A stretch of DNA of 10,343 nucleotides, from NCBI GenBank assembly GCA_017885365.1, contig JAFNGD010000044.1:220-10562 (forward strand). Direction: 5' to 3'. Positions 1 to 10,343 of the stretch are shown in pieces. The notes under the pieces are model-generated. The model did not search any database. It had not been told where the DNA came from and saw only the letters and a program-made list of their open reading frames with translations. Source of the stretch: Nitrospirota bacterium (GTDB lineage Bacteria; Nitrospirota; UBA9217). Every line of letters begins with the position of its first letter. Positions within the stretch are counted from its first letter, which is position 1. Made by a program: the position numbers and the translations under genes.

Positions 1-815
1 ATCGCCACGGGTTCGGACGCTGCGACCGATGACGCGGCTTCGAGCGAGACGCCGGCGGGGAACGTTTTGCGGGGAGTACGCCGCCGGGAGCCTTCGACCG
101 GCTGAAAATCGTCCTCCCGCGCCTCCCGTGTCGTCGTCTGCTCCTGGTCCTGCGTGATGACGTCAAAGTGCCGGTCGAGCGCCCAGAAACACTTGTTGTC
201 GCGGTCAAGTATCCAGCCCCCCCCGCCCGGCGCCGGCGCCATGTCGTAAGGCGCGAACGGGACAGCTGCAGGCCAGAGCATGATGCGCGGTGGACCGCCT
301 GCGTAGAGATCGAAGACCAGCAATCCCTTCGGGGCCCCCATGCCCACGACAAGATAGTGGTCTTCCGTCACGGCCAGCCCGCCCAGGGACTTCGGGGCGG
401 GCAGCGGATCCTGCATCGTCGGCGCGAAATCGTTCCGGCCTCCTGCGGGTCCGCAGGGTCTGCCCGGATCCAACGGCCAGAACCGCGTGGTCTTCCCGGT
501 ACCCGATGAGTTCACCAGCACCTCGGTTCCGCTTTGGCCGATCCAGTACCAGTTCTGGAACCGGTCGCAGCTTGCACCCCTGCGGTCCTCCGGGTCCGGT
601 GCCCGGTCCCGGGGTGCGGGAACGAACTGGAAGGCCAGCGGTTGAAGGGTCACCTCATCCCGCTCACTGTCCCAGAACAGGTTCCCTGCGTCCTCTTCGG
701 GGGGAGAGGAGCTCCAGAAGGAAGCAAGGGTCGGCGCCCCCTGCTCCTCCAGGGAACAGCGGCCCCAATCAGGCTTGCCGAGGAAAAGGTGATGCCCTGT
801 TCCGTTCGCATCCAT
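1..815 (-). CDS. CIS-associated beta-propeller-like protein, N-terminal 271 residues (runs off left edge)
   Basis: The frame opens at an ATG at 815-813 and stays open for 271 codons to the window edge, so the C-terminus is missing. The start lies one base after the gp6 stop (TAACATG) with a GAGGGG ribosome site inside the gp6 gene. Near residues 145-215 the sequence alternates short beta-strand blocks rich in Gly, Trp and Asp: GLAVTEDHYLVVG, GLLVFDLYAGGPP, DMAPAPGGGGWILDRD and CFWALDR. This spacing resembles NHL/beta-propeller blades. Residues 40-95 hold a Trp/Asp-rich segment (LFWDSERDEVTL, DRFQNWYWIG). Residues 222-270 look like a charged, low-complexity linker. Proteins of this kind follow the gp6-like gene in many CIS clusters, and some carry a phage-tail domain further along; that part cannot be seen here. 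A baseplate-peripheral or fibre-attachment role is inferred from position only. It could also be a gp7/Afp12-position protein. Confidence 0.82.
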   Translation of the reverse strand, partial: MDANGTGHHLFLGKPDWGRCSLEEQGAPTLASFWSSSPPEEDAGNLFWDSERDEVTLQPLAFQFVPAPRDRAPDPEDRRGASCDRFQNWYWIGQSGTEVLVNSSGTGKTTRFWPLDPGRPCGPAGGRNDFAPTMQDPLPAPKSLGGLAVTEDHYLVVGMGAPKGLLVFDLYAGGPPRIMLWPAAVPFAPYDMAPAPGGGGWILDRDNKCFWALDRHFDVITQDQEQTTTREAREDDFQPVEGSRRRTPRKTFPAGVSLEAASSVAASEPVA

Positions 816-816
816 G

Positions 817-3129
817 TTATCTGCACCCCTCGGGAATGACCGGCACAGGCACGAAGTCTGCGGGTCCGGGCGGCGCCTGCGCTGTCGTGCCGCGAAGATG
901 GTCGATCTCCACGGGATCGCCGACGGCAACGGAGATCCCCATCACGCGCGGCAGCTCAAGTCCCTTCATCTCGACCTGGTCCTTCGCATCGCCGGTATCT
1001 TCTGCGAGCAAGACCTTGCTTACCAGCGAGACCCCCGAGACCCGGCTAGCAACAGCAAGCAGCTGAAGAGCTACCACGGGATTGCGTAGAGGCCAGCCCG
1101 TCCCGCTGCCATCCGGCTGCGGGGCTGTGAGCGACACGGCCTGGCCGCCTGCCTCGCTGGTCTGGGCGGATGGGAGCGGCGAGAGGAACGCGAGGAGCGC
1201 CTGCTTTACCGCTTCCCGCACCTCGGCGATGCTCCGGCCCGCAACGACGTTGATCCCCGCCGAGAGCCATATGTCCTTGTACACTGGTCCGCGCAGAAAG
1301 AGCTCCGTCGTGACCAGCCGGCGCGGCTCCAGATAGCTGCAGATGGTGTTGAGAAAGAGCCGGTCGGGGAGGGGCGCATCGGGCTGGACCGGGTCGTACT
1401 TGGGAATGATCATCAGCGTTACCACTCCGGGGGCGTCGCCCGGCTCGTTCTGGACCAGTTCCGGATTGAACGCGGGGATCACATCGACGCGGCCGATATC
1501 GACGCCCGGCGTCCGCCGTACGATCGTATCGAAGTCGGCTGCATTGACCAGCCGGTCGCGGTGCTGCAGGTACCGGCTGATCTGCTTTTCCCCGTCCCGT
1601 ACCGTTTCCTTGTCAGCGCCGCCCCAGGTCGGCACGGGGTTGGTGACCTTCATGCCGGCAGGAAGCGCCGGAGCGGTGTTGATCGAACCCTCATTCACGT
1701 TTCCGGCCTTTCCTTCGCTGTAGTCATAGTCCGCCGTGAGCTGTGCGCCCAGGGGAAAGCGCGCACCGCGCAGGCCGTCTCCGCACCGGACCTCGCCGGA
1801 CTCCGGATCAAGCCCGAACACCTTGATGCGGGGTTTTCGGTCCGTTGATCGCTTTGCCGCCGACGCGCCGGGCGGCAATCTGAGGTCCGGGACCTGCACC
1901 TCGGGATCAGCGCCCATCAGGTCATCGATCTCCTCCCAGACCCCTGATGCGCCTGTCGGCGGCGTTACCAAAAGCCGGACCGATCCCGGGATCACCGGCT
2001 TTTTCGAGAGAGTCACGACCTGATCAGGCTCGCCCGTTCCCCGGGGCAGGCGCTCGCTGGAGATATGCGCCTTCTGGGAGACCATCACCGTGTTGATGCC
2101 GACCCAGAGCAGCTTCGCCTGGACCGTGGTCTTGGCTGAGGAACTGATGCGAAGCCACGTAATGATACGGTCGTTCAGCTCCGTGTCTTCGAGCGCCGGC
2201 GGAAGATCGCCCACCCCCTGCTCGATCGGATCGAGATTGCTCCACAGCTTCAGCGCCTCAACGCCGGGCAGGGTGATCTGGACGACGCCGGGCTCCGCCA
2301 GAACATCGGTCGGGGCGATGGCATCGAGGAGTTGGTAGTCCGGGCTTGGCTTTGCCTGACCGCCGGGCAGCTTGCCGTCGGCCGGGATCTTGGGAATCCT
2401 GTAGGCCAGCTGTGCCTCGCCCTCGGGATTGGCACGGCCGCCCGGGACCAGCCAGCGCGCGGCGTCGGTGAGCGCCGGCACCACGCCGAGGCTGAGCGTC
2501 TTCTTCGCGATCTGCCCCCGAACGGCAGCAGGTGTATCGCCCGGTCGGGCCAGGAGCGCGATCCAGATCGATCCGTCGATCGTATCCCCGCCCAGGTCCA
2601 CCCCGTTCTTCTGCCCGTCCAGAAGGACGGTCTCGTAGAGCTGGAGCTCAGCGCCCGCAGGCTGACCGGTGAAGGATGCATAAAGCTGGTCGTAATAGGC
2701 GCGGACCTCGTCGGCAGGATTCATCAGTTTCCGCTTGAAATAGACCCGGCCTTCGATCGGCAGCACATCGAGCCCCTGGTCGGTGCGGAAAGGAACCTGC
2801 CCGGCGCGGACCTCCATGCCGCCGTTCAGGGTGATCGTCTGGAGCGGCCCGCGTTCGTTCGAGATCGTTACGAGGCCGCGCGCCGACGACGCCGGCTGCA
2901 GCGGTACGCCGAGGAGGGAGAGGAATTTCAGCCTGTTCCGCTCGGGGATCTGGTTCGCGCGGTAGAGCAGCGTTTCAGTGAGAAAGGCGAATATCTCGAT
3001 CAGCGTGACGCCGGGATCGCTCTTGTTGAAATTCGTCCACTCGGGTGTATGGACCGGGATCCGCGCAAGCGCTTCATCCAGCAGGTCCTGGTACTTTCGG
3101 TCATCGAGGTTCGGGATCGACAGCGGCAT
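817..3129 (-). CDS. Baseplate wedge protein, gp6 / baseplate J-like (Afp11/Pvc11-type)
   Basis: Predicted 770-residue putative baseplate assembly protein. In T4-like machines and CIS, gp6-family proteins form the wedge ring that transmits the firing signal from baseplate to sheath. The N-terminus has the family signature: DDRKYQDLLDEALARIP, then SDPGVTLIEIFAFLTETLLYR near residues 37-57 and a run ending in FLSLLGVPLQPA. The central region has WEEIDDL, then VFGLDPESGEVRCGDGLRG with the GDG at about 450-452, and GKAGNVNEGSI near 474-483. The second half carries RLVNAADFDTIVRRTPGV, VTLMIIPKYDP and SYLEPRRLVTTELFLRGP. Length is usual for CIS versions. I chose the ATG at 3129, which has GAGGAG six bases upstream, over a TTG eight codons earlier that would overlap the gp25 gene. 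It starts 13 bases after gp25, and the next gene begins one base after its stop. Nothing appears broken. Confidence 0.95.
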   Translation of the reverse strand: MPLSIPNLDDRKYQDLLDEALARIPVHTPEWTNFNKSDPGVTLIEIFAFLTETLLYRANQIPERNRLKFLSLLGVPLQPASSARGLVTISNERGPLQTITLNGGMEVRAGQVPFRTDQGLDVLPIEGRVYFKRKLMNPADEVRAYYDQLYASFTGQPAGAELQLYETVLLDGQKNGVDLGGDTIDGSIWIALLARPGDTPAAVRGQIAKKTLSLGVVPALTDAARWLVPGGRANPEGEAQLAYRIPKIPADGKLPGGQAKPSPDYQLLDAIAPTDVLAEPGVVQITLPGVEALKLWSNLDPIEQGVGDLPPALEDTELNDRIITWLRISSSAKTTVQAKLLWVGINTVMVSQKAHISSERLPRGTGEPDQVVTLSKKPVIPGSVRLLVTPPTGASGVWEEIDDLMGADPEVQVPDLRLPPGASAAKRSTDRKPRIKVFGLDPESGEVRCGDGLRGARFPLGAQLTADYDYSEGKAGNVNEGSINTAPALPAGMKVTNPVPTWGGADKETVRDGEKQISRYLQHRDRLVNAADFDTIVRRTPGVDIGRVDVIPAFNPELVQNEPGDAPGVVTLMIIPKYDPVQPDAPLPDRLFLNTICSYLEPRRLVTTELFLRGPVYKDIWLSAGINVVAGRSIAEVREAVKQALLAFLSPLPSAQTSEAGGQAVSLTAPQPDGSGTGWPLRNPVVALQLLAVASRVSGVSLVSKVLLAEDTGDAKDQVEMKGLELPRVMGISVAVGDPVEIDHLRGTTAQAPPGPADFVPVPVIPEGCR
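826..831 (-). promoter_or_regulatory. Ribosome binding site of the left-edge propeller-like gene
   Basis: GAGGGG lies ten bases before the ATG at 815, inside the last codons of the gp6 gene. With the one-base gap between genes it points to coupled translation. Confidence 0.6.
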
Positions 3130-3135
3130 GCTCGG

Positions 3136-3141
3136 CTCCTC
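3136..3141 (-). promoter_or_regulatory. Ribosome binding site that sets the gp6 start
   Basis: GAGGAG lies six bases before the ATG at 3129. It sits in the short gap after the gp25 stop and decides for this ATG over the in-frame TTG at 3153. Confidence 0.82.
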
Positions 3142-3142
3142 G

Positions 3143-3538
3143 TCACCCGGCAAGGGCGATGGTCATACTTACCCGTTCCGTTGCTTGCGTGGCGACCAGC
3201 GTGTAGGAGATCGTAGCCATGGCCGCCTGGGGATCGGCGGGATCGGGATCGACCTGGACCGATCCAACCCGAATGCGCGGCTCCCATGCCGCCAGGGCAT
3301 TCGTGATGCGTTCCTGGATCTGATGCCGCGTGGCCACGGTATTCGGCTCGAAGAGGAAGCGGCCGAGACCGCCGCCGAACTGCGGCATCCGCAGCCGCTC
3401 CCGCTGCTCCGTCATGAGAATGATGCGAACGGACTCGCGGATGTTCTCCGCACCCTCGGACCAGGCGATGCGTCCGTCGGCTCCCACGCGCGGCGGGAAT
3501 CTCATCCCCCGTCCGTATATGCGTCCCGCGTCCGTCAT
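3143..3538 (-). CDS. Baseplate wedge protein, gp25-like (Afp9/Pvc9-type)
   Basis: Predicted 131-residue gp25-family protein. gp25 (TssE in type VI secretion) sits at the sheath-baseplate junction and helps start sheath assembly. The family pattern is clear: GRGMRFPPRVGADGRIAWS, then ENIRESVRIILMTEQRERLRMPQFG with the typical RxxxPxFG-type element, then FEPNTVATRHQIQERITNALAAWEPRI and a closing beta-strand pair VSYTL-like (ISYTLVATQATERV). The ATG at 3538-3536 overlaps the TGA of the upstream membrane-protein gene by four bases (ATGA), which fixes the start; a start 16 codons earlier would lie inside that gene. The ribosome site is weak (AAGGCAAAGAAG), consistent with translational coupling. 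The gp6 gene follows after 13 bases, the usual gp25-gp6 pairing in CIS clusters. Confidence 0.94.
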   Translation of the reverse strand: MTDAGRIYGRGMRFPPRVGADGRIAWSEGAENIRESVRIILMTEQRERLRMPQFGGGLGRFLFEPNTVATRHQIQERITNALAAWEPRIRVGSVQVDPDPADPQAAMATISYTLVATQATERVSMTIALAG

Positions 3539-5658
3539 GTCTTCTTTGCCTTCATTCCCGGTATCGGGAAACAGGTGAACAGCCACGGGATCCAGTGGAA
3601 GAACATGTCAAAGAGGGCCACGATAATGATCAGCAGGATGAGGGCGGCAAGCGTGACGATCGGGATCGACAACGAACAGTACATTCCGGAGTTGTCCTTG
3701 CAGGGCCCTGTCTTTCCGGGATTGGGCAGGTCCTTGTGAAAGGGCCAGGGGAGCACGGAAAGCACAAGGTCTCCGAATGTCAATTTCCGGATCTCTCCGA
3801 CCTTGCCGCACAGCATGTCCGACATCATCAGCGTTGCGTTCTTCTTGAACTTCCGAAGACCAGCCGGGGATATATCCATGGGAAGCGAGATCCTGACCTG
3901 CCGCGCAGGCGCGTCGGGATCGAAGAACGACGCCATCTGGAACTTCTCTGTGGGAATGCTGACCGCGGCGGGATGCAGAAGCCCGCAATTGGGCCGCTCG
4001 AACACGCATCGGATCACGAACCAGCCCTCCCGCACATCCAGCGGCAGCTTTGGCTTCTCTATTTCCGGCGGCACCGTCGTGGCCGTCATGGGCGGAAGCG
4101 CCTTTTCGACCAGCTCTGCCAGGTCGTCGACCTGCTGAAACGCGGTATCGATCTGATCCCATGATAGTGCGCCGACATCGATATCCAGGGGCCCTGCAAG
4201 GGTCTGGTCAGCTTTAATGTAAGGGAGCAGACTGTTGGATCCCTGCGTGCTCACTCCGACATCGGCCAAAGGAAAAAGAACGCGGGGCCACCGTACATCA
4301 AGAGGAATAGGATCGCCTTCACGATCGTATGCAACATCAACGGACTCCAGACCATTTTCTATCTGTGCCGTATTGATGAGAACGAGGGCGTCGGCAAGAG
4401 TGTGCGGAACCTCAGCCTCGCCATAGCCGGTGCCTTTTCTCAGATCCGCACTGAGTGTCCCGGTGATCACGATTTCCTTCAATTTGGTGACGAGAGCGCC
4501 CTCCTGGTCCGTCAGCAGACGTCCCGGATCCTCATTCTTCAATTTTTTCCAGACCGGCGTGAGGTTCTTTTCAAGGAATTTTGCGAAATCCAGTATGATG
4601 TACCAGGACCCGTTCTGGATCTGCTCACGTGTCGCCTTGATTATATTCAGCGCACCATTCTTTTCATTTTCCCGATCGGCAATCGGTGACGTTACAGGCA
4701 GTGCGGGCAATAGTGTCTCATGCGTTCCTTTTGCCAGCCTAATAAGAGCCACCCAGGGCGCCGTGACTTTGGCGTCGAAGAGCGCACGGAGCGCTTCGCG
4801 GCCCTTCTTCTCCGTTCGTTCTTCCTCGGTGATGGTTTTCCCGTTCTCTGTCCGCTCGTCGTTTTCGCTCCTCGGCGCCCCCAGGTAGGCCTCACGCTTC
4901 CCCACGGGGATCAGGCCTGCGAACATGCGGCGCCGGCGGTCGCCGGATTCAGCGAAGTTCAGCGCGAACAGCGGCAGCCGCTCTTCCCCGGTTCGCACGG
5001 CCGTCCGTTCGGCCGGAGGGATCTCGGCCCAGGCATAGCCGTCCGGCGTTGCCACGTAGGCGAATTCCGACCAGCGTGCGTCAGTGGCACCATCGGGTGT
5101 TGTTGACTCTGCAGCGGTATCCTCATGAACGACTCGCCGGATGACAAAGTTCGCCGACTCCTGCTTCCCCGCATCGACGCGGCGGTCCGGCATGCCGTAC
5201 TGCTGGCACACCAGAGAGGCGGTCACCAGATAGAACCGCTGATGGGCTGGCTGATACAGCTTGAACGGCGGTCCGTCGTCCGCTGCGCCGGACGGTTTTG
5301 ATGCCATCGTGGCGGCCGGAGCGGAGGACGTCCCTGCTCTTTCCCGCTGGATGCTCCGCCGCATGAGCCGCTTTGACAGGTCCGTTACCGGTTCGATGGG
5401 CTTCAGGTTTCCTGCGGTGCCCGGCCGGGCCAGGGGCGCTTGCCACGTTTCCGGTTGTGCGACCCACTCCGGCAGACGATCGGGAGCGTAGGCCAGAACG
5501 GCAAGGACCTCGTCCATGAACAGGTCGTTGTCGAAGCGCAGGATCGCCGGCTGCCACGCCGATCCATTGGCGCCGTCCGTCACGGCAACGCCTCCGTTCC
5601 TCCAGAGCGGCTGGGGCGCCAGCCATTTGGCCTCATGTCTTGTCAATCCGTTCACCAT
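3535..5658 (-). CDS. Uncharacterised CIS-cluster protein with C-terminal membrane anchor
   Basis: Predicted 707-residue protein; I cannot assign it to a named family. There is no N-terminal signal peptide. Residues 1-100 are soluble, with several Trp and acidic residues. Residues about 135-260 hold RFYLVTASLVCQQYGMPDRR, FVIRRV, EERLPLFALNFAE and MFAGLIPVGKREAYLGAP, and look like a folded domain. Residues 262-295 are strongly charged (Glu/Lys/Arg). Residues about 541-640 hold GWFVIRCVFERPNCGLLHP, FFDPDAPARQVRISLP and SPAGLRKFKKNATLMMSD. Residues 664-683 (IPIVTLAALILLIIIVAL) are a convincing transmembrane helix, followed by an aromatic stretch (FDMFFHWIPWLFTCFPIP) and a basic tail (KAKK). Topology therefore looks tail-anchored, with about 660 residues on the cytoplasmic side. 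It overlaps the spike gene by seven bases and gp25 by four, so it is an integral operon member. Membrane docking of the CIS is an inference. It sits between spike and gp25, near where Afp-type loci often place a PAAR gene. Confidence 0.88.
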   Translation of the reverse strand: MVNGLTRHEAKWLAPQPLWRNGGVAVTDGANGSAWQPAILRFDNDLFMDEVLAVLAYAPDRLPEWVAQPETWQAPLARPGTAGNLKPIEPVTDLSKRLMRRSIQRERAGTSSAPAATMASKPSGAADDGPPFKLYQPAHQRFYLVTASLVCQQYGMPDRRVDAGKQESANFVIRRVVHEDTAAESTTPDGATDARWSEFAYVATPDGYAWAEIPPAERTAVRTGEERLPLFALNFAESGDRRRRMFAGLIPVGKREAYLGAPRSENDERTENGKTITEEERTEKKGREALRALFDAKVTAPWVALIRLAKGTHETLLPALPVTSPIADRENEKNGALNIIKATREQIQNGSWYIILDFAKFLEKNLTPVWKKLKNEDPGRLLTDQEGALVTKLKEIVITGTLSADLRKGTGYGEAEVPHTLADALVLINTAQIENGLESVDVAYDREGDPIPLDVRWPRVLFPLADVGVSTQGSNSLLPYIKADQTLAGPLDIDVGALSWDQIDTAFQQVDDLAELVEKALPPMTATTVPPEIEKPKLPLDVREGWFVIRCVFERPNCGLLHPAAVSIPTEKFQMASFFDPDAPARQVRISLPMDISPAGLRKFKKNATLMMSDMLCGKVGEIRKLTFGDLVLSVLPWPFHKDLPNPGKTGPCKDNSGMYCSLSIPIVTLAALILLIIIVALFDMFFHWIPWLFTCFPIPGMKAKKT

Positions 5659-6377
5659 ATGTTCCCCGCTCCCGGCGTATAGGAGGCGCTGATCACGCTG
5701 TTGCTGATCACGGTGTCGGCCTGAACAACGCCGCTGAACTTGGACATTCCTGCATTGACCGTCAGCGTTCCCGCGGATATCTCCATGATGCTTGCGTTGA
5801 CCGTCACCTTGGCGGACGCTGTGACGGTGACGCCGCTCGTCTCAAGCTTCACGGAGTTCCCGTTGCTGTCCACGATCTCGACGGCGCCCGGTCCGTCCTT
5901 CAGGGTGATCTTTTGCCCGCCTGGCGTCTCCAGGACCATCGTTTCCCGGCCATCCGAATCGTCGAGGGTGATCGTGACGCCGTTACGCGAGCGCAGCACT
6001 TTTTTGAAGTTCCTTCCCGATCCGTCCATGGATGCCGGCGGCGCGTCGCTTCCGTTCCACAGTCCGCCGATGACATAGGGACGGCAGGGATTCCCTCCTT
6101 CGAATACGACCAGGACCTCATCATTGACGTCCGGGATGAACCAGCTCCCGCGGTTGTTGCCGCCCATGAGCGTTGCCACCCGCGCCCATGCTTCGTACCG
6201 GTCGCTTCCCGTGTCAGGCGACCAGGGCAGTGTCACCAGCACACGCCCCTGGCCGTCGGGGTCCTTGACGTCGCTCACAAGGGCGGGATAAACTCCGTAC
6301 CATCGCCCTCCCAGCCCGCTCGGCTGCCGGGAACTGATGACCATCTCAAAGGTCGTTTGTTCGTGTGTTTTCATCAT
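5652..6377 (-). CDS. Central spike protein, gp5/gpV-like (OB-fold plus beta-helix)
   Basis: Predicted 241-residue spike that forms the membrane-piercing needle below the hub, likely as a trimer. Residues about 25-110 match the gp5/VgrG OB-fold: WYGVYPALVSDVKDPDGQGR, VLVTLPW, WARVATLMGGNNRGSWFIPD, DEVLVVFEGGNPCRPYVIGG and LWNG. Residues about 128-212 are a run of short alternating strands (VTITLDD, TMVLETPGG, KITLKDGPG, AVEIVDSNG, VTVTASAK, VTVNAS, LTVNAG), typical of a triple-stranded beta-helix. The C-terminus ends in SYTPGAGNIW. There is no gp27-like hub part and no lysozyme domain, so this is a separate spike, unlike fused Afp8/VgrG. Its ATG overlaps the hub stop by four bases (ATGA); a second ATG follows directly, so the true start may be one codon later. 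Confidence 0.94.
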   Translation of the reverse strand: MMKTHEQTTFEMVISSRQPSGLGGRWYGVYPALVSDVKDPDGQGRVLVTLPWSPDTGSDRYEAWARVATLMGGNNRGSWFIPDVNDEVLVVFEGGNPCRPYVIGGLWNGSDAPPASMDGSGRNFKKVLRSRNGVTITLDDSDGRETMVLETPGGQKITLKDGPGAVEIVDSNGNSVKLETSGVTVTASAKVTVNASIMEISAGTLTVNAGMSKFSGVVQADTVISNSVISASYTPGAGNIW

Positions 6378-7438
6378 GGTTGCCCCAGAGCCGGCCGCTC
6401 GGCTGTAAATTCAGTCCGGATCCCCTTCGCGCCATCAAACAAGTGCTTGATCTCGGACACATAGTAAGCTCCGTTGAACAGGGGTCCCAGTCCCTGCAGG
6501 TCCACGGCGGCGCCAACCCGAAGCCGGCTGTCCGTGTCTGCGACTCCGCGTCCGACGACGAACCGACGGGCCGCCATCCTGAAGAACGCCTCTGCTTCCG
6601 CCTGGGCTTCCGAACTCGTAAGCGGGACCGTGTGCACGACCGCTTCCTTGCGCGGACCAAAGGAGGAGGAAAGGATGCTCGATCCGCTGACCCCGTCTCC
6701 CAGCTCGTTGCTGATAACGCTGTCTGTTGCTTCATGGTTCAGGGCGGTCTTGCCCGCAACGTCCCAGCCGCTCACGATCATGCTGGTGCGCTGCCCCGCC
6801 AGGTCCGCGATGACGGAAAATTCCCGCAAGTTGTCGCCGTAGGCCAACTGCAGCGGGGTGCCGTTCCGGCCTGCGCGGGACTCTGCACGAAGCGTTGTGT
6901 TCTCCATCCAGATCTCCGCATCGATCGCCCGCGCCCGTTCGCGCAGGAAGGCAAGATCGCTCTGATTGACCTGCGCCAGGACCTTATGGGTCGGCCCGGT
7001 CACATTGACCTGGGGGCTCAGGCCGTGATCGTTCGCTATCCGGTTGATCACATCGGCGTCGGTCACATTCGAGAACGTGCGGGTACGCCGTGTCATGCGC
7101 AGGTCCTGCAGCCGGTCCTCGGCAAGCACGGCCAGCTCTCGCGGACCCCGGTTGCGATAGTGAGCCTCGAGCGCCATGATCTTCCCGTCGAATACCGTAT
7201 CCCTCCCGATCTTCACGGACAACCCCTTGCCGAAATCAAGCGTTTGCCGGTCGAAGTACAGGTAGCCGATGCTTTGGTTGACCGCGCCCCAGTTCCCCAA
7301 AACGGCTTCGCACCGGTAGAGACCGTTGGTGTTCTCCACGACGATGAGGCTCAGCAGGCCCTCTGAGAGGGACGGATCATCTTGTCCATTCAGGGCGATC
7401 ATCGGCCGTGCTGCGGTTATGGCGGTTCCGTTCCCCAT
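6374..7438 (-). CDS. Baseplate hub protein, gp27 / phage late control D (GPD) family
   Basis: Predicted 354-residue hub that adapts the sixfold tube to the threefold spike. The order of elements fits GPD/gp27: N-terminal beta domain with LSEGLLSLIVVENTNGLYRC and EAVLGNWG; LSVKIGRDTVFDGKIMALEA; then the middle domain with LAVLAEDRLQDLRMTRRTRT, DVINRIANDHGLSP and QVNQSDLAFLRERARAIDAE; and a C-terminal barrel ending in VDLQGLGPLFNGAYYVSEIKHLFD and GIRTEFTAER. Length is usual for stand-alone hubs. The ATG at 7438 gives a ten-residue lead before the RPMIALNG segment; a downstream ATG at 7402 is a possible alternative. No good ribosome site precedes 7438, but the small upstream gene stops only six bases before it, so coupling is likely. 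The spike gene overlaps its stop by four bases. Confidence 0.93.
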   Translation of the reverse strand: MGNGTAITAARPMIALNGQDDPSLSEGLLSLIVVENTNGLYRCEAVLGNWGAVNQSIGYLYFDRQTLDFGKGLSVKIGRDTVFDGKIMALEAHYRNRGPRELAVLAEDRLQDLRMTRRTRTFSNVTDADVINRIANDHGLSPQVNVTGPTHKVLAQVNQSDLAFLRERARAIDAEIWMENTTLRAESRAGRNGTPLQLAYGDNLREFSVIADLAGQRTSMIVSGWDVAGKTALNHEATDSVISNELGDGVSGSSILSSSFGPRKEAVVHTVPLTSSEAQAEAEAFFRMAARRFVVGRGVADTDSRLRVGAAVDLQGLGPLFNGAYYVSEIKHLFDGAKGIRTEFTAERPALGQP

Positions 7439-7444
7439 GGCTTG

Positions 7445-7615
7445 TCAATGTGCCCAGACGCGGGCTGAACGCTCCGCTGAGTGCCGCAGGATGCGTTCGA
7501 TGTCCAGTGTCGTCGGCGCTTGTGCCGCAGGAGCGGCACCGACCGTCGGTTCCGTTGCCTGGCTCGCCGGCTGCGCTTCGGCTACCACCTCGAACTCTTG
7601 GATCACCACGCCCAT
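7445..7615 (-). CDS. Small CIS-cluster protein, 56 residues
   Basis: A 56-residue frame from an ATG at 7615-7613 to a TGA at 7447-7445 fills the space between the LysM and hub genes. It has a strong ribosome site (GGGAGGA) seven bases upstream. The sequence has three parts: a hydrophobic/acidic start (MGVVIQEFEVVAEAQP), a low-complexity Ala/Pro/Thr middle, and a basic helical end (LDIERILRHSAERSARVWAH). CIS clusters commonly carry a very small gene near the LysM and hub genes (for example Pvc6), and the start resembles the beta-strand start of small DUF5908-type proteins, from memory only. Function is unknown; a small tube-hub interface or assembly factor is a guess. Chance is unlikely because start, ribosome site and length fit the gap exactly. 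Confidence 0.75.
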   Translation of the reverse strand: MGVVIQEFEVVAEAQPASQATEPTVGAAPAAQAPTTLDIERILRHSAERSARVWAH

Positions 7616-7637: not shown

Positions 7638-8369
7638 TCAGGTTCGCCGTACGTTCAGGTCGATCATCTGCCCCGGCTGCAGCAGCCGCGGATTTTCGAT
7701 ATTGTTTGCCGCGGCGATCGCCTGCCAGGACGCGCCCTTCCCGATCCTGTCAGCCATGCCCTGCAGCGTGTCACCGGCGGTCGCCGTCGAGAGCGGCTCG
7801 GTCCCTGCCGGAGCGCCGCCTCCCATACCGGCGACCGGCGCGCCTGCCCGCTGCTCGGGAGTGGTGAAGGCAAACTGGATCGATTGCTGCGAAATGCTCA
7901 GCGCTATGCCTGCCCGAAGCGGCTTCCCGTCGGGTGAAAAAAGCTCCAGAGACTCTTCCATCGATTCCACGATGCCGTCAAACTTGAACGTTCCCCAGCG
8001 GAAACTGACGCCGGGCGGCAGGAACTTGTTCTTGTCATCAGCAGCTGCCTTGGGCGTAATGAAATACGCCACCTTCTTTGTCACCTGGCGAACATCATCC
8101 ACCGTCGCATCCTCGCCCTGCGGAAGCGGCGAGGTCACGTCGAACCAGAGCTGAACGCTCAGCTTCGTCGTTCCTTTGCCGACGTACTGCGTGCCGCTCG
8201 TACTGCGCTGATCCACGGCGCCGGCCGGCTTCTCCGGCGGGACGATCTGGTTGGAAAAGCTCACCTTCAGGGATTCCGGGTTGAACTGCACGGGCACCTT
8301 TATCCCGTCGCTCCCATCAGTTTTCAGCTCGACGAGCTGGGCCTTTGTCACCGGTACGGCATCAGGCAT
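7638..8369 (-). CDS. LysM-domain CIS tube/baseplate protein (Afp7/Pvc7, gp53-like)
   Basis: Predicted 243-residue protein that joins the inner tube to the hub in Afp/PVC-type particles. Residues about 5-165 fit the CIS tube-protein N-terminal domain: VPVQFNPESLKVSFSNQ, TTKLSVQLWFDVTS, VRQVTKKVAYFI, LPPGVSFRWGTFKFDGIVES and LFSPDGKPLRAGIALSIS. Residues about 172-195 are a Gly/Ala/Pro linker. Residues about 196-241 are a LysM domain: TAGDTLQGMADRIG, WQAIAAANNIENPRLLQPGQ and MIDL. In this setting LysM is thought to be a structural contact in the baseplate and not a secreted peptidoglycan binder; no signal peptide is present. The ATG at 8369 has a near-perfect AGGAGG six bases upstream. It follows the tube gene after 72 bases, the largest gap in the window. 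Confidence 0.93.
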   Translation of the reverse strand: MPDAVPVTKAQLVELKTDGSDGIKVPVQFNPESLKVSFSNQIVPPEKPAGAVDQRSTSGTQYVGKGTTKLSVQLWFDVTSPLPQGEDATVDDVRQVTKKVAYFITPKAAADDKNKFLPPGVSFRWGTFKFDGIVESMEESLELFSPDGKPLRAGIALSISQQSIQFAFTTPEQRAGAPVAGMGGGAPAGTEPLSTATAGDTLQGMADRIGKGASWQAIAAANNIENPRLLQPGQMIDLNVRRT

Positions 8370-8441: not shown

Positions 8442-8942
8442 TCATGGTGCAGTCGGTTTCTTGATGGTCAGCGATTCGTACGCAAGCTGCAGCTCTTCGA
8501 TCGCGACCATGCCATCCTTCGCGTTCAACGGCGGGGCCTTCAGCTTGACGGGAACGCAGCGTGTCAGGATGACCCGGGCGCGCTTTGTCTGTCCGTCGGC
8601 CGCGTAGAGCGTCACTTCAGCATTCCCGCGCAGTTCCTCGCGCAGTTGCGCTGTGGGCGCCTGCAGCAATTTGTTGAACCAGTCCCAGAGATCAAAGGTA
8701 TCGGTCATGCCGCGCTTCAGGGTAAGCTGTCCATAGCTCAAAGGTCCCAGCAGTCTCACCTGTCCGTTATTATTGCCGCCTTCACGGATCGTTTTGACCT
8801 CCATCGTCATTTCAAGTCCGTCGCATTCGGAAAAAGCGGCGTTACAGACCGCCGTCTGAGAAACACCTGGCACATTGATTGCGACGGCAAAGTTAAATGC
8901 CGTAAACGGATAGAGTACGGTCTCGCTGGCCGGGTTCGGCAT
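8442..8942 (-). CDS. Inner tail tube protein (T4 gp19-like; Afp1/Afp5-type)
   Basis: Predicted 166-residue tube protein, which stacks as hexamers to form the conduit inside the sheath. Family features in order: PFTAFNFAVAIN at the start, FSECDGLEMTMEVKTIREGG (the conserved G-L-E and E-G-G elements), PLSYGQLTLKRGMTDTFDLWDWF, a helix-loop LLQAPTAQLREELRGNAEVTLY, RARVILTRCVPVKLKAP, and IEELQLAYESLTI at the end. Length is typical. The gene begins three bases after the sheath stop, with its ribosome site overlapping that stop. Afp and PVC carry several tube paralogues; only one is visible here and it directly precedes the LysM gene, the position of Afp5/Pvc5. Whether another tube gene lies to the right cannot be told. 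Confidence 0.95.
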   Translation of the reverse strand: MPNPASETVLYPFTAFNFAVAINVPGVSQTAVCNAAFSECDGLEMTMEVKTIREGGNNNGQVRLLGPLSYGQLTLKRGMTDTFDLWDWFNKLLQAPTAQLREELRGNAEVTLYAADGQTKRARVILTRCVPVKLKAPPLNAKDGMVAIEELQLAYESLTIKKPTAP

Positions 8943-8945
8943 CGC

Positions 8946-10343
8946 CTACCTCCCCTCCGCAACTGCCATGCGGTCGCCCGTCTGTACGAGCCGGATCGTC
9001 AGAAACGTCATCGGCAGCGACGGCGCTACCCTCAGCTCAACGAGAAACCGGCCCTCATCCCTGCTCTGGCGGGTATTGAGCGAACTGTCGGTGACGACCT
9101 GAAATGCCTCGGCCGGCGCAGCCCCTTTAAAGGCGCCGCGCGAGAACAGGTCGCCCAGCATGGCTTCAAACCCGCGCTCAACCTGCGATCCGAACGAATC
9201 GTCGTTCGGTTCGAACACGTATGTTGCTCCCAGGCGAAGAGCCTGTCTGCGCAGCAGGATCATCAAACGGCGTACATTGATCGGGCGAAGCTCAGGGTCA
9301 TCGCTCATGGTGTCGGCGCTCAGGACCAGAAAGCCCCGAGCTTCCTGCCTGAGAAGATTGACCCGCGCCTCCTGCAATTCGAGCCTGCGGTCCGGGAGGA
9401 TCGGCGGGTCAAGCATGAGCGCATTTTTCACCGGGACATTGGCTGGCGCCACCCACGCGCCGCGTACCATGCTTCGTTCCGCGAAGATGCCGCACAGGGG
9501 GCCTTCCGGCGGAACGGTCCGCAGCGGATTGACCTGACTCTCGTCTCGGGTGACCACCCAGGGGTGATAGAGCGCGCCGTAGCTGAGCGCTGCCGGCTCC
9601 AATCCGTCGGGTACCGCTTCTTTCAATGTTTTTTTATGAGCTGCGCAGTCATTTTCCCGATAGTGCTCCGGGAGGGAAAGCACGGCAAACAAATCTCCCC
9701 GCGCCGCGCACATGCGCAGAAGCGCCCTCTGCACATCGAGAAGCGTCTCGAGCGTCTCGGTTGAATACTGCTCCGCCTTATTCTGCGTCCACGGTAGCGG
9801 CTCGCCAACCTGCACCGCTATGCCGGGCGACCAGTCGCTTGTATCGCCATTTTCCTCGGCCCGGACCCGATAGTAATAGGTCCCGGGTTGCCGTCCGTAA
9901 ATTGCAACCCGGTTGTCCCTGCCCTCATACATGACCGTAGCTCCGGCCCAATCAGGACTTGTCGCTTCCTGCACCGAGTACCGGGCATGTTGCTCGAATG
10001 ACCACGTAAGGACGAAGGAACCCGACAGGTCCGGTTTGCCGGCATCGAGATCTTTTGGAGGTTCAATTACCCGAATGGAGCAGTTGAGGAAGTTTCCCTG
10101 TAAGGGCTCTCTTCTCCGGTGGTCTTTGTCTTCGGAGCGCTTCTTTTGCTCTGCAGGAGACAGGTCGCATTTTTCGAAATGCCACCATTCCGGACGGAAT
10201 TCCGGCTTTGATTCCGGGTCCTGCTCCTTAGGCTGCTCAAGAGGCTCTTTCCATCCCCGATGAACTGCGTCGGGAACACTGATGATCGTCGCCTCGTCGA
10301 TCTCAAGCGCCGCATGGATGCCCTGAAGTTTTCGGATCGTCGG
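8946..10343 (-). CDS. Contractile tail sheath protein, C-terminal 465 residues, with Fn3-like insertion (runs off right edge)
   Basis: The frame is open from the right edge to a TAG at 8948-8946, so the N-terminus is missing. Numbered from the edge, residues 1-27 hold a sheath core strand (ALEIDEATIISVPDAV). Residues about 28-87 are a charged linker, and residues about 89-181 a fibronectin-III-like domain (FVLTWSFEQHARYSVQEA, GTYYYRVRAEENGDTSDWSP). The core resumes near residue 200 (LLDVQRALLRMCAARGDLFA), followed by ALYHPWVV, VPPEGPLCGIFAERSMVRGA and WVAPANVPVKNA. The last 115 residues are the conserved sheath end: INVRRLMILLRRQALRLGAT, YVFEPNDDSFGSQVERGFEA, DLFSRGAFKGAAPAEAFQVV and DEGRFLVELRVAPSLPMTFL. 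That C-terminal domain forms the inter-subunit mesh in known sheaths. A GTG at 9974 is not the start, because the upstream frame is open and sheath-like. Confidence 0.93.
   Translation of the reverse strand, partial: PTIRKLQGIHAALEIDEATIISVPDAVHRGWKEPLEQPKEQDPESKPEFRPEWWHFEKCDLSPAEQKKRSEDKDHRRREPLQGNFLNCSIRVIEPPKDLDAGKPDLSGSFVLTWSFEQHARYSVQEATSPDWAGATVMYEGRDNRVAIYGRQPGTYYYRVRAEENGDTSDWSPGIAVQVGEPLPWTQNKAEQYSTETLETLLDVQRALLRMCAARGDLFAVLSLPEHYRENDCAAHKKTLKEAVPDGLEPAALSYGALYHPWVVTRDESQVNPLRTVPPEGPLCGIFAERSMVRGAWVAPANVPVKNALMLDPPILPDRRLELQEARVNLLRQEARGFLVLSADTMSDDPELRPINVRRLMILLRRQALRLGATYVFEPNDDSFGSQVERGFEAMLGDLFSRGAFKGAAPAEAFQVVTDSSLNTRQSRDEGRFLVELRVAPSLPMTFLTIRLVQTGDRMAVAEGR
8949..8955 (-). 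promoter_or_regulatory. Ribosome binding site of the tube gene
   Basis: GGGGAGG lies six bases before the tube ATG and overlaps the last codons of the sheath gene, just ahead of its TAG. The strong site suits a highly expressed structural subunit and couples tube translation to the sheath. Confidence 0.85.

Follow-up and report, generated by a model that had tools for sequence, protein, structure and literature searches.

The 10,343-nucleotide stretch of DNA analysed here, hereafter called the window (Nitrospirota bacterium, assembly GCA_017885365.1, contig JAFNGD010000044.1, positions 220 to 10,562), is a fragment of one contractile injection system (CIS) operon encoded on the minus strand. 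It comprises a sheath gene cut by the window end, a tube gene, a CIS_tube/LysM gene, an open reading frame (ORF) of 56 residues, a hub gene, a spike gene, ORF 3535-5658, whose 707-residue product is called TA in this report, a gp25 gene, a gp6 gene and the start of a gp7/Tail_P2_I-type gene. TA is the subject of this study: it is a fixed component of the baseplate operon, it ends in a conserved hydrophobic helix, and its family recurs beside the same baseplate genes across many phyla. The features of the window are listed below, with the evidence for each in brackets.

3535..5658, minus strand: TA, 707 residues from an ATG start, with a C-terminal hydrophobic helix (ORF list, homologues, hydropathy, AlphaFold2 (AF2) model)
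3610..3669, minus strand: codons of the hydrophobic segment, TA residues 664-683 (ORF arithmetic, hydropathy, conservation)
5652..6377, minus strand: spike with a Phage_base_V OB domain, 241 residues (Pfam)
3143..3538, minus strand: gp25-like sheath initiator, 131 residues from the ATG at 3538, the program-made ORF beginning further upstream (Pfam, junction)
817..3153, minus strand: gp6/Cis11-like baseplate wedge (NCBIfam TIGR02243, 239.8 bits; PDB sequences)
3..815, minus strand: N-terminal part of a gp7/Tail_P2_I-type protein cut by the window end, its start at 815 picked from the ORF list; close relatives have about 1000 residues (locus comparison; the complete relative L003:14794-17895 matches Tail_P2_I in Pfam)
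6374..7438, minus strand: hub, Phage_GPD, 354 residues, in a gene separate from the spike (Pfam, NCBIfam, PDB sequences)
7445..7615, minus strand: small ORF of 56 residues (matches in 73 of 91 loci)
7638..8369, minus strand: CIS_tube plus LysM protein, 243 residues (Pfam)
8442..8942, minus strand: inner tube (gp19-like), 166 residues (Pfam)
8946..10343, minus strand: tail sheath, C-terminal 465 residues, cut by the window end (Pfam, PHROGs, PDB sequences)

The small ORF 7445-7615, which lies between the CIS_tube/LysM and hub genes, has no match in Pfam or NCBIfam; it may resemble DUF5908.

The original prediction described TA as a tail-anchored membrane protein embedded in the baseplate operon, and the features that it read from the letters are present. 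Indeed, (i) the TA gene overlaps the spike gene by seven bases, the spike stop (gene end 5652) lying inside ATGGTGA at the TA start (5658), and the gp25 gene by four bases, the TA stop codon TGA (3537-3535) lying within ATGA of the gp25 start (3538), (ii) the hydrophobic segment at residues 664-683 reaches a Kyte-Doolittle peak of 3.17 (19-residue window, residues 665-683), a value attained by one of 5000 shuffles of TA, and none of the nine remaining window proteins, complete or partial, exceeds 1.84, (iii) the first 60 residues peak at 1.0 and contain no signal-peptide-like stretch, (iv) the segment is followed by an aromatic stretch (MFFHWIPWLFTCF) and a basic tail (KAKK), and (v) no named domain is recognised, comparisons with Pfam, PHROGs and NCBIfam up to E 0.1 having yielded nothing for TA. 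No significant match was found among PDB sequences either.

A search of 5.8 billion proteins, in which 7,996 candidates were scored, returned a TA family of 631 proteins at E 0.001. Family-wide statistics on the segment refer to the best 120 of these 631 proteins, the window's own included (119 besides): the C-terminal hydrophobic segment is present in all 120, with a maximum hydropathy of 2.6-3.3 and a start 37-49 residues before the protein end. In 84,980 species, each represented by one genome, a pattern-based scan located 160 TA-encoding stretches, the best 80 of which were analysed together with 10 TA-matching contigs from IMG/VR and the window itself (91 loci, several of which end at contig ends). 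The segment is kept in 89 of the 90 TA ORFs of these loci, window counted; the exception (L056) reads as an out-of-frame end, and the 91st locus (L088) has no single TA ORF. TA carriers include Nitrospirae, Gammaproteobacteria, Burkholderiales, Caulobacter, sphingomonads, Acidobacteria, Bacteroidetes, Verrucomicrobia, Chloroflexales, Leptolyngbya, Fibrobacteres, Calditrichaeota, Kryptoniota, Polyangiaceae and several desulfo-groups. The ten IMG/VR contigs (L081-L090) are labelled viral, hold the same CIS genes and resemble bacterial CIS clusters, not phages. Occurrence in phage genomes, the mark of a phage tail protein, is not seen for TA: none of 50,697 phage records gave a match (tblastn, E 0.001), nor did any of 72,556 plasmid records.

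CIS genes accompany TA at all 91 loci, and the refuting observation named by the original prediction, an absence of homologues from other CIS loci, was therefore not made. The usual gene order is hub-spike-TA-gp25-gp6-gp7, and matches were obtained for the hub at 88 loci, the spike at 89, TA and gp25 at 91 and gp6 at 88. TA overlaps gp25 by four bases at 50 of 89 loci and the spike overlaps TA by four or seven bases at 52 of 89, counts that are biased upward because the script favoured start codons near such overlaps. Furthermore, a distant subfamily of 38 shorter proteins (483-631 residues) was found, 30 of which were aligned after exclusion of the eight weakest or fragmentary ones. It is homologous to TA over nearly the full length (profile comparison probability 99.9, E 2.7e-33) and retains the C-terminal motif C-S/G-F-N/S-I-P-I-I-T...L-N...F-x-W...I-C-x-P-x-P, and the gene order is unchanged in the one distant-subfamily cluster inspected (G431). 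Net charge after the segment averages +2.6 (range 0 to +4) in TA; the basic tail is not general, as PEEE and DDGGGG endings occur in the distant subfamily. Long versions of TA, with 961-969 residues compared with the usual 640-730, also occur (P0073, P0090 and L080:10001-12910). A myxococcotal protein of 777 residues (P0151) in which a TA-like C-terminus follows a spike OB domain was considered as a spike-TA fusion and set aside as a frame-shift artefact, its Arg/Pro/Ala-rich middle being unlike either family; it was not used to argue for a contact.

The AF2 model of TA, built with 60 sequences (mean predicted local distance difference test score, pLDDT, 80.5), shows a folded part, made of beta strands with a long helical bundle, as far as about residue 580, low confidence at residues 605-666, a 30-residue helix at 667-696 and 11 residues after it. 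A distant homologue of 520 residues has the same plan, with a terminal helix at 477-508 (mean pLDDT 79.0). Across the 60 TA sequences, mean pairwise identity is 43% for the whole protein, 31% for the helical bundle, 73% for residues 546-645, 77% for the hydrophobic segment and 63% for the aromatic stretch that follows; drawing from the segment's own composition, 17% would be expected by chance. S664, P666, I667, T669, A672, F687, W689 and P691 are invariant. Such letter-by-letter conservation is more than a plain hydrophobic anchor requires, and thus points to a helix that packs specifically, either against copies of itself or against a partner. Within the equally conserved region 546-645, the second half is poorly modelled, as would be expected if it folds only on a partner. 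Cysteines 661 and 696 (window positions ~3676 and ~3571) bracket the helix; they are nearly invariant in alignments A1 and A3 and missing in some loci, for example L019 and L055.

These invariant residues could also reflect tight packing in the interior of the particle, TA then being an ordinary soluble tail component whose helix is buried at the baseplate centre or at the spike tip. Phage baseplate chains do stand second and seventh among the Foldseek matches of the TA model (9rku and 8fqc), at non-significant E values of 0.4-0.9, and the weak structural matches that recur are Ig-like sandwiches. However, a hydropathy maximum of 2.6-3.3 in every one of the 120 homologues, far above that of any other window protein, speaks against this reading. 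The match to a soluble tail protein that the original prediction had named as grounds for rejection did not appear in the profile and Foldseek comparisons: no solved structure is a significant relative in sequence or fold, though one may exist. We consider this explanation improbable.

The association was also examined in reverse, with a gp6 alignment (A2, 21 sequences) as probe. In the order of a Pyrinomonadaceae metagenome-assembled genome (MAG), G004, gp6 matches occur in 31 of 119 genomes, and TA was found in 10 genomes, the very ones whose gp6 match reaches 448 bits (two of these, G535 and G536, have one TGA within the TA match); no TA was detected in the 21 genomes with weaker gp6 matches (at most 218 bits). 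In the order of a Roseiflexaceae MAG (G018), gp6 matches occur in 39 of 82 genomes; TA is present in all seven with gp6 matches of at least 495 bits and was not detected in the other 32 (at most 191 bits). In both orders, some of the weaker gp6 matches may not be CIS genes. An eighth TA genome of this order (G442) has no gp6 match and carries TA at the extreme end of a short contig. TA is therefore near-strictly present with its gp6 type in both orders, with this single contig-end exception. A CIS marker based on TIGR02243 had been tried on 398 genomes of one phylum (29 matching; at most two candidates scored per genome) and was dropped for alignment A2 in these smaller groups. On contig C33 of the genome of locus L003, which differs from the contig of TA, more TIGR02243-type genes are found, which points to a second tail-like system.

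Together with the operon overlaps and the conserved gene order, this co-occurrence supports the original view that TA belongs with the baseplate genes: it is a fixed part of the operon and not an accessory gene. It also bears on a reading of TA as a toxic effector linked to the spike and equipped with a membrane segment, comparable to the type VI secretion system (T6SS) effectors encoded beside VgrG, a reading that the position of TA after the spike gene would suit. Effectors usually differ between relatives; TA keeps near-strict company with gp6, its 60 sequences can be aligned over their full length with the C-terminal third most conserved, and no toxin domain was found in it with Pfam, PHROGs or NCBIfam. 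An effector role is thus very improbable.

A further contrast is provided by the Roseiflexus-type sheath, which is encoded in 17 of the 82 genomes of the order of G018; two of the 17 also have TA, on other contigs. In the four genomes whose sheath comes closest to the printed R. castenholzii peptide (85-95% identity), TA was not detected, and the particles of R. castenholzii are reported, in the available text, to be unanchored and free in the cytoplasm (PMC12998442), which fits anchoring by TA where it occurs.

Regarding the kind of CIS, the window gp6 matches a single PDB chain at E 0.01 (9gtp_1K, E 5.6e-38) and the gp7 of a relative likewise only 9gtp_E. 9GTP is the baseplate of the Streptomyces coelicolor CIS (PMC12237407). 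The best PDB matches of the window sheath are 8bky/9gtp and 8bl4/9gts, those of the spike are 7b5h (Anabaena) and 7aef, and the hub matches first the VgrG chain 9rce_F and then 7b5h and 7aef. The gene set is of the extracellular CIS (eCIS) type according to Pfam, with sheath to Baseplate_J in the window, a cap and Tail_P2_I in L003 and an AAA ATPase in the flanks of L005 and L014. DotU/TssL was matched in 7 of 20 TA genomes and IcmF_C/TssM in 6 of 20, always on a different contig from TA or more than 90 kilobases away (no match in 13 and 14 of the 20, respectively); the TA clusters are therefore not canonical T6SS, in which TssL and TssM are encoded with the machine.

Five clusters could be followed beyond the limits of the window. 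They have in common a cap, recognised as Pvc16_N in L003, a second sheath and tube, which antisense ORFs picked by the script hide in the Variovorax cluster, conserved unknown proteins, the AAA ATPase (a Pfam match in two of the clusters) and, at the 3' end, a large protein. One of the two large proteins tested (L091:5792-9166) ends in Ntox15 and is a candidate toxic cargo. Among the proteins of at least 100 residues called, TA is the sole one with a membrane-like segment in all five clusters. Two families encoded after gp7 (L003:17888-20859, L005:18012-20793; 455-528 and 438-462 residues) have no Pfam or PHROGs match, and the conserved downstream unknowns may include tail fibres for target binding; TA may itself be a tail fibre. 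In the text available, loci without fibre candidates are said to be systems that "might act intracellularly" (PMC12923769). In one gammaproteobacterial MAG, the CIS cluster includes a gene for prolipoprotein diacylglyceryl transferase (Lgt; L099:12607-13440).

With cap, AAA ATPase and, in one relative, an Ntox15-containing cargo, these eCIS-like clusters could also belong to released particles that carry TA with its helix shielded. On firing, the helix would enter the target membrane as part of a translocation pore beside the spike, whose gene directly precedes that of TA, and sequence-specific conservation of the segment is what an oligomeric pore would show. However, no chaperone or shielding partner was identified, a helix of hydropathy near 3 would be unfavourable if exposed on a soluble particle, and the phage records gave no match. 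We regard a target-membrane pore as unlikely.

The explanation that we favour, with moderate confidence, is that TA serves as a core adaptor on the baseplate side, by which an intracellular CIS is docked to the cytoplasmic membrane of its producer, in one uncharacterised CIS lineage. The one solved chain that gp6 matches is that of the cytoplasmic Streptomyces CIS, in which the membrane protein CisA is reported to be needed for contraction (PMC12237407). For the way in which TA would enter the membrane, be oriented in it, touch the baseplate and act in docking or firing, and for its copy number, we propose the following. The folded cytoplasmic part of TA (residues ~8-580; beta strands, weakly Ig-like, interrupted by the helical bundle) would sit on the baseplate, the strongly conserved and poorly modelled stretch ~605-663 would lead to the terminal helix, and this single C-terminal helix (664-696) would lie in the producer's cytoplasmic membrane, inserted after translation given the lack of a signal peptide. 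The spike could be held against the membrane by several TA copies per baseplate, and contraction would then push the tube outward across the membrane or, as in Streptomyces, free effectors on the producer's side. Of the original claim that TA holds or triggers the CIS at the membrane, the place in the baseplate operon and a helix of the type reported for the anchored Cis13 (PMC8894136) are thus retained, the membrane location and the holding are proposed by inference, and triggering is no more than a possibility.

Several observations weigh against this adaptor role. The membrane prediction is made from Kyte-Doolittle hydropathy and the AF2 helix only, and a plain anchor would not need conservation at the level of letters. 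If TA lies with its N-terminus inside and its C-terminus outside, the positive tail would be outside, contrary to the positive-inside rule; as the distant subfamily also has acidic tails, tail charge is no firm guide to topology. The relatives' clusters are eCIS-like in the respects given above (Pvc16_N cap, AAA ATPase, candidate toxic cargo in one). The TA profile (A1) barely detects divergent TA (28-36 bits), so that the absence of TA elsewhere may partly be blindness of the profile, and the Roseiflexus comparison is a single contrast, confounded with lineage, in which the printed peptide is not matched exactly by any of the four genomes. Furthermore, across 68 loci, TA distances correlate with those of the other cluster genes at r 0.48-0.72, and those genes with each other at 0.80-0.93. 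In 9 of the 68 loci (L008, L012, L015, L017, L022, L038, L047, L075 and L080), gp6 is only 33-38% identical to that of the window and yet TA is 42-49% identical, matching or exceeding many loci with a closer gp6, and seven of the nine form a clade in the TA tree. This mismatch suggests that TA has been exchanged between CIS sublineages or is under a different constraint. As a pointer to a TA partner, the mirror-tree comparison indicated none beyond gp6 as the highest value (0.72).

If the proposed docking is correct, mode of action would be recognisable from sequence by a core gene that carries a membrane-like helix and goes with one gp6 type in many phyla. Indeed, whether a CIS serves as a released weapon, as a contact weapon or as a suicide device depends on how it engages a membrane, and gene content usually does not reveal this. 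TA is also a concrete target for deletion or truncation in named environmental strains such as Variovorax sp. J22P240 (L030) and Caulobacter sp. Root655 (L048). A bolder version, which we consider doubtful, is that a widespread eCIS-like lineage is permanently docked at the producer's membrane by TA alone, the packed helices forming a ring or septum round the spike through which the tube fires; TA would then be a one-protein replacement of the T6SS membrane complex, usable in one-membrane (Chloroflexi) and two-membrane cells. TA represents a previously unnamed family recurring in one poorly studied CIS branch. No description of it, and no particle structure or proteomics for its lineage, was found in the full-text literature, a scope outside which most subscription papers and preprints fall, nor in the available text of PMC12237407, PMC8894136, PMC12998442, PMC11566945, PMC8213781, PMC12923769, PMC12210884 and PMC10598620.

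TA may be compared with several known anchored systems. TssL (DotU) of the T6SS is a tail-anchored inner-membrane protein whose cytoplasmic domain faces the baseplate, and TA is likened to it on this ground. TA has no match to the TssL/DotU family PF09850 up to E 0.1 and, unlike T6SS TssL, it has no TssM or TssL match nearby in the 20 genomes. The nearest solved relative by gp6 and gp7 is the S. coelicolor CIS, whose cluster encodes CisA, described in the available text as a single-pass membrane protein needed for contraction and proposed to bind Cis11 (PMC12237407). In CisA the N-terminus is mostly unstructured, the helix lies mid-protein and a conserved C-terminal domain (about 310-468) is extracytoplasmic (PMC12237407), whereas in TA the N-terminus is folded, the helix is terminal and an extracytoplasmic domain is missing; the two are set apart by architecture (AF2), not by sequences. 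CisA also suggests that TA could be a membrane-bound platform or recruiter from which baseplate assembly starts, or make a transient contact with the particle as proposed for CisA, and be absent from the resting particle: CisA is reported to be missing from the model of the purified CIS (CISSc) and yet required for contraction (PMC12237407), and the window gp6 and a relative's gp7 match only CISSc chains in the PDB. We consider this alternative to stable docking quite unlikely.

The proposed docking by TA has its closest described parallel in Cis13 (All3316) of the thylakoid-anchored CIS of Anabaena, a baseplate-attached protein whose predicted C-terminal transmembrane helix is reported to hold the particle at an internal membrane, 9 of 14 particles being free-floating after deletion of the helix (PMC8894136). 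TA resembles Cis13 in its predicted C-terminal membrane helix. However, Cis13 forms a trimer that resembles a tail fibre, and its membrane helix spans residues 122-154 (PMC8894136), while TA has about 700 residues, a different predicted architecture and a gene between spike and gp25; the TA profiles A1 and A3 gave no match up to E 10 against the 7b5h chains, a set that may not include Cis13. In the Amoebophilus T6SSiv, Aasi_0556 (Cis13) is suggested to aid inner-membrane anchoring in place of a tail fibre (PMC12210884), and TA is likened to it by this described role and not by sequence. Hbor_38620, a putative haloarchaeal CIS anchor, is an uncharacterised membrane protein reported to mark a CIS sublineage with membrane-bound particles (PMC11566945); TA is likewise an uncharacterised membrane-like protein marking a CIS sublineage, but Hbor_38620 has six predicted membrane helices, a cytoplasmic domain of about 150 residues and a gene upstream of the core cluster (PMC11566945). 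The design of TA, as predicted, thus parallels those of Cis13, CisA and Hbor_38620, and its architecture resembles none of them. TA is best read as a probable single-protein analogue of Cis13, CisA and TssL, with homology to any of them not established.

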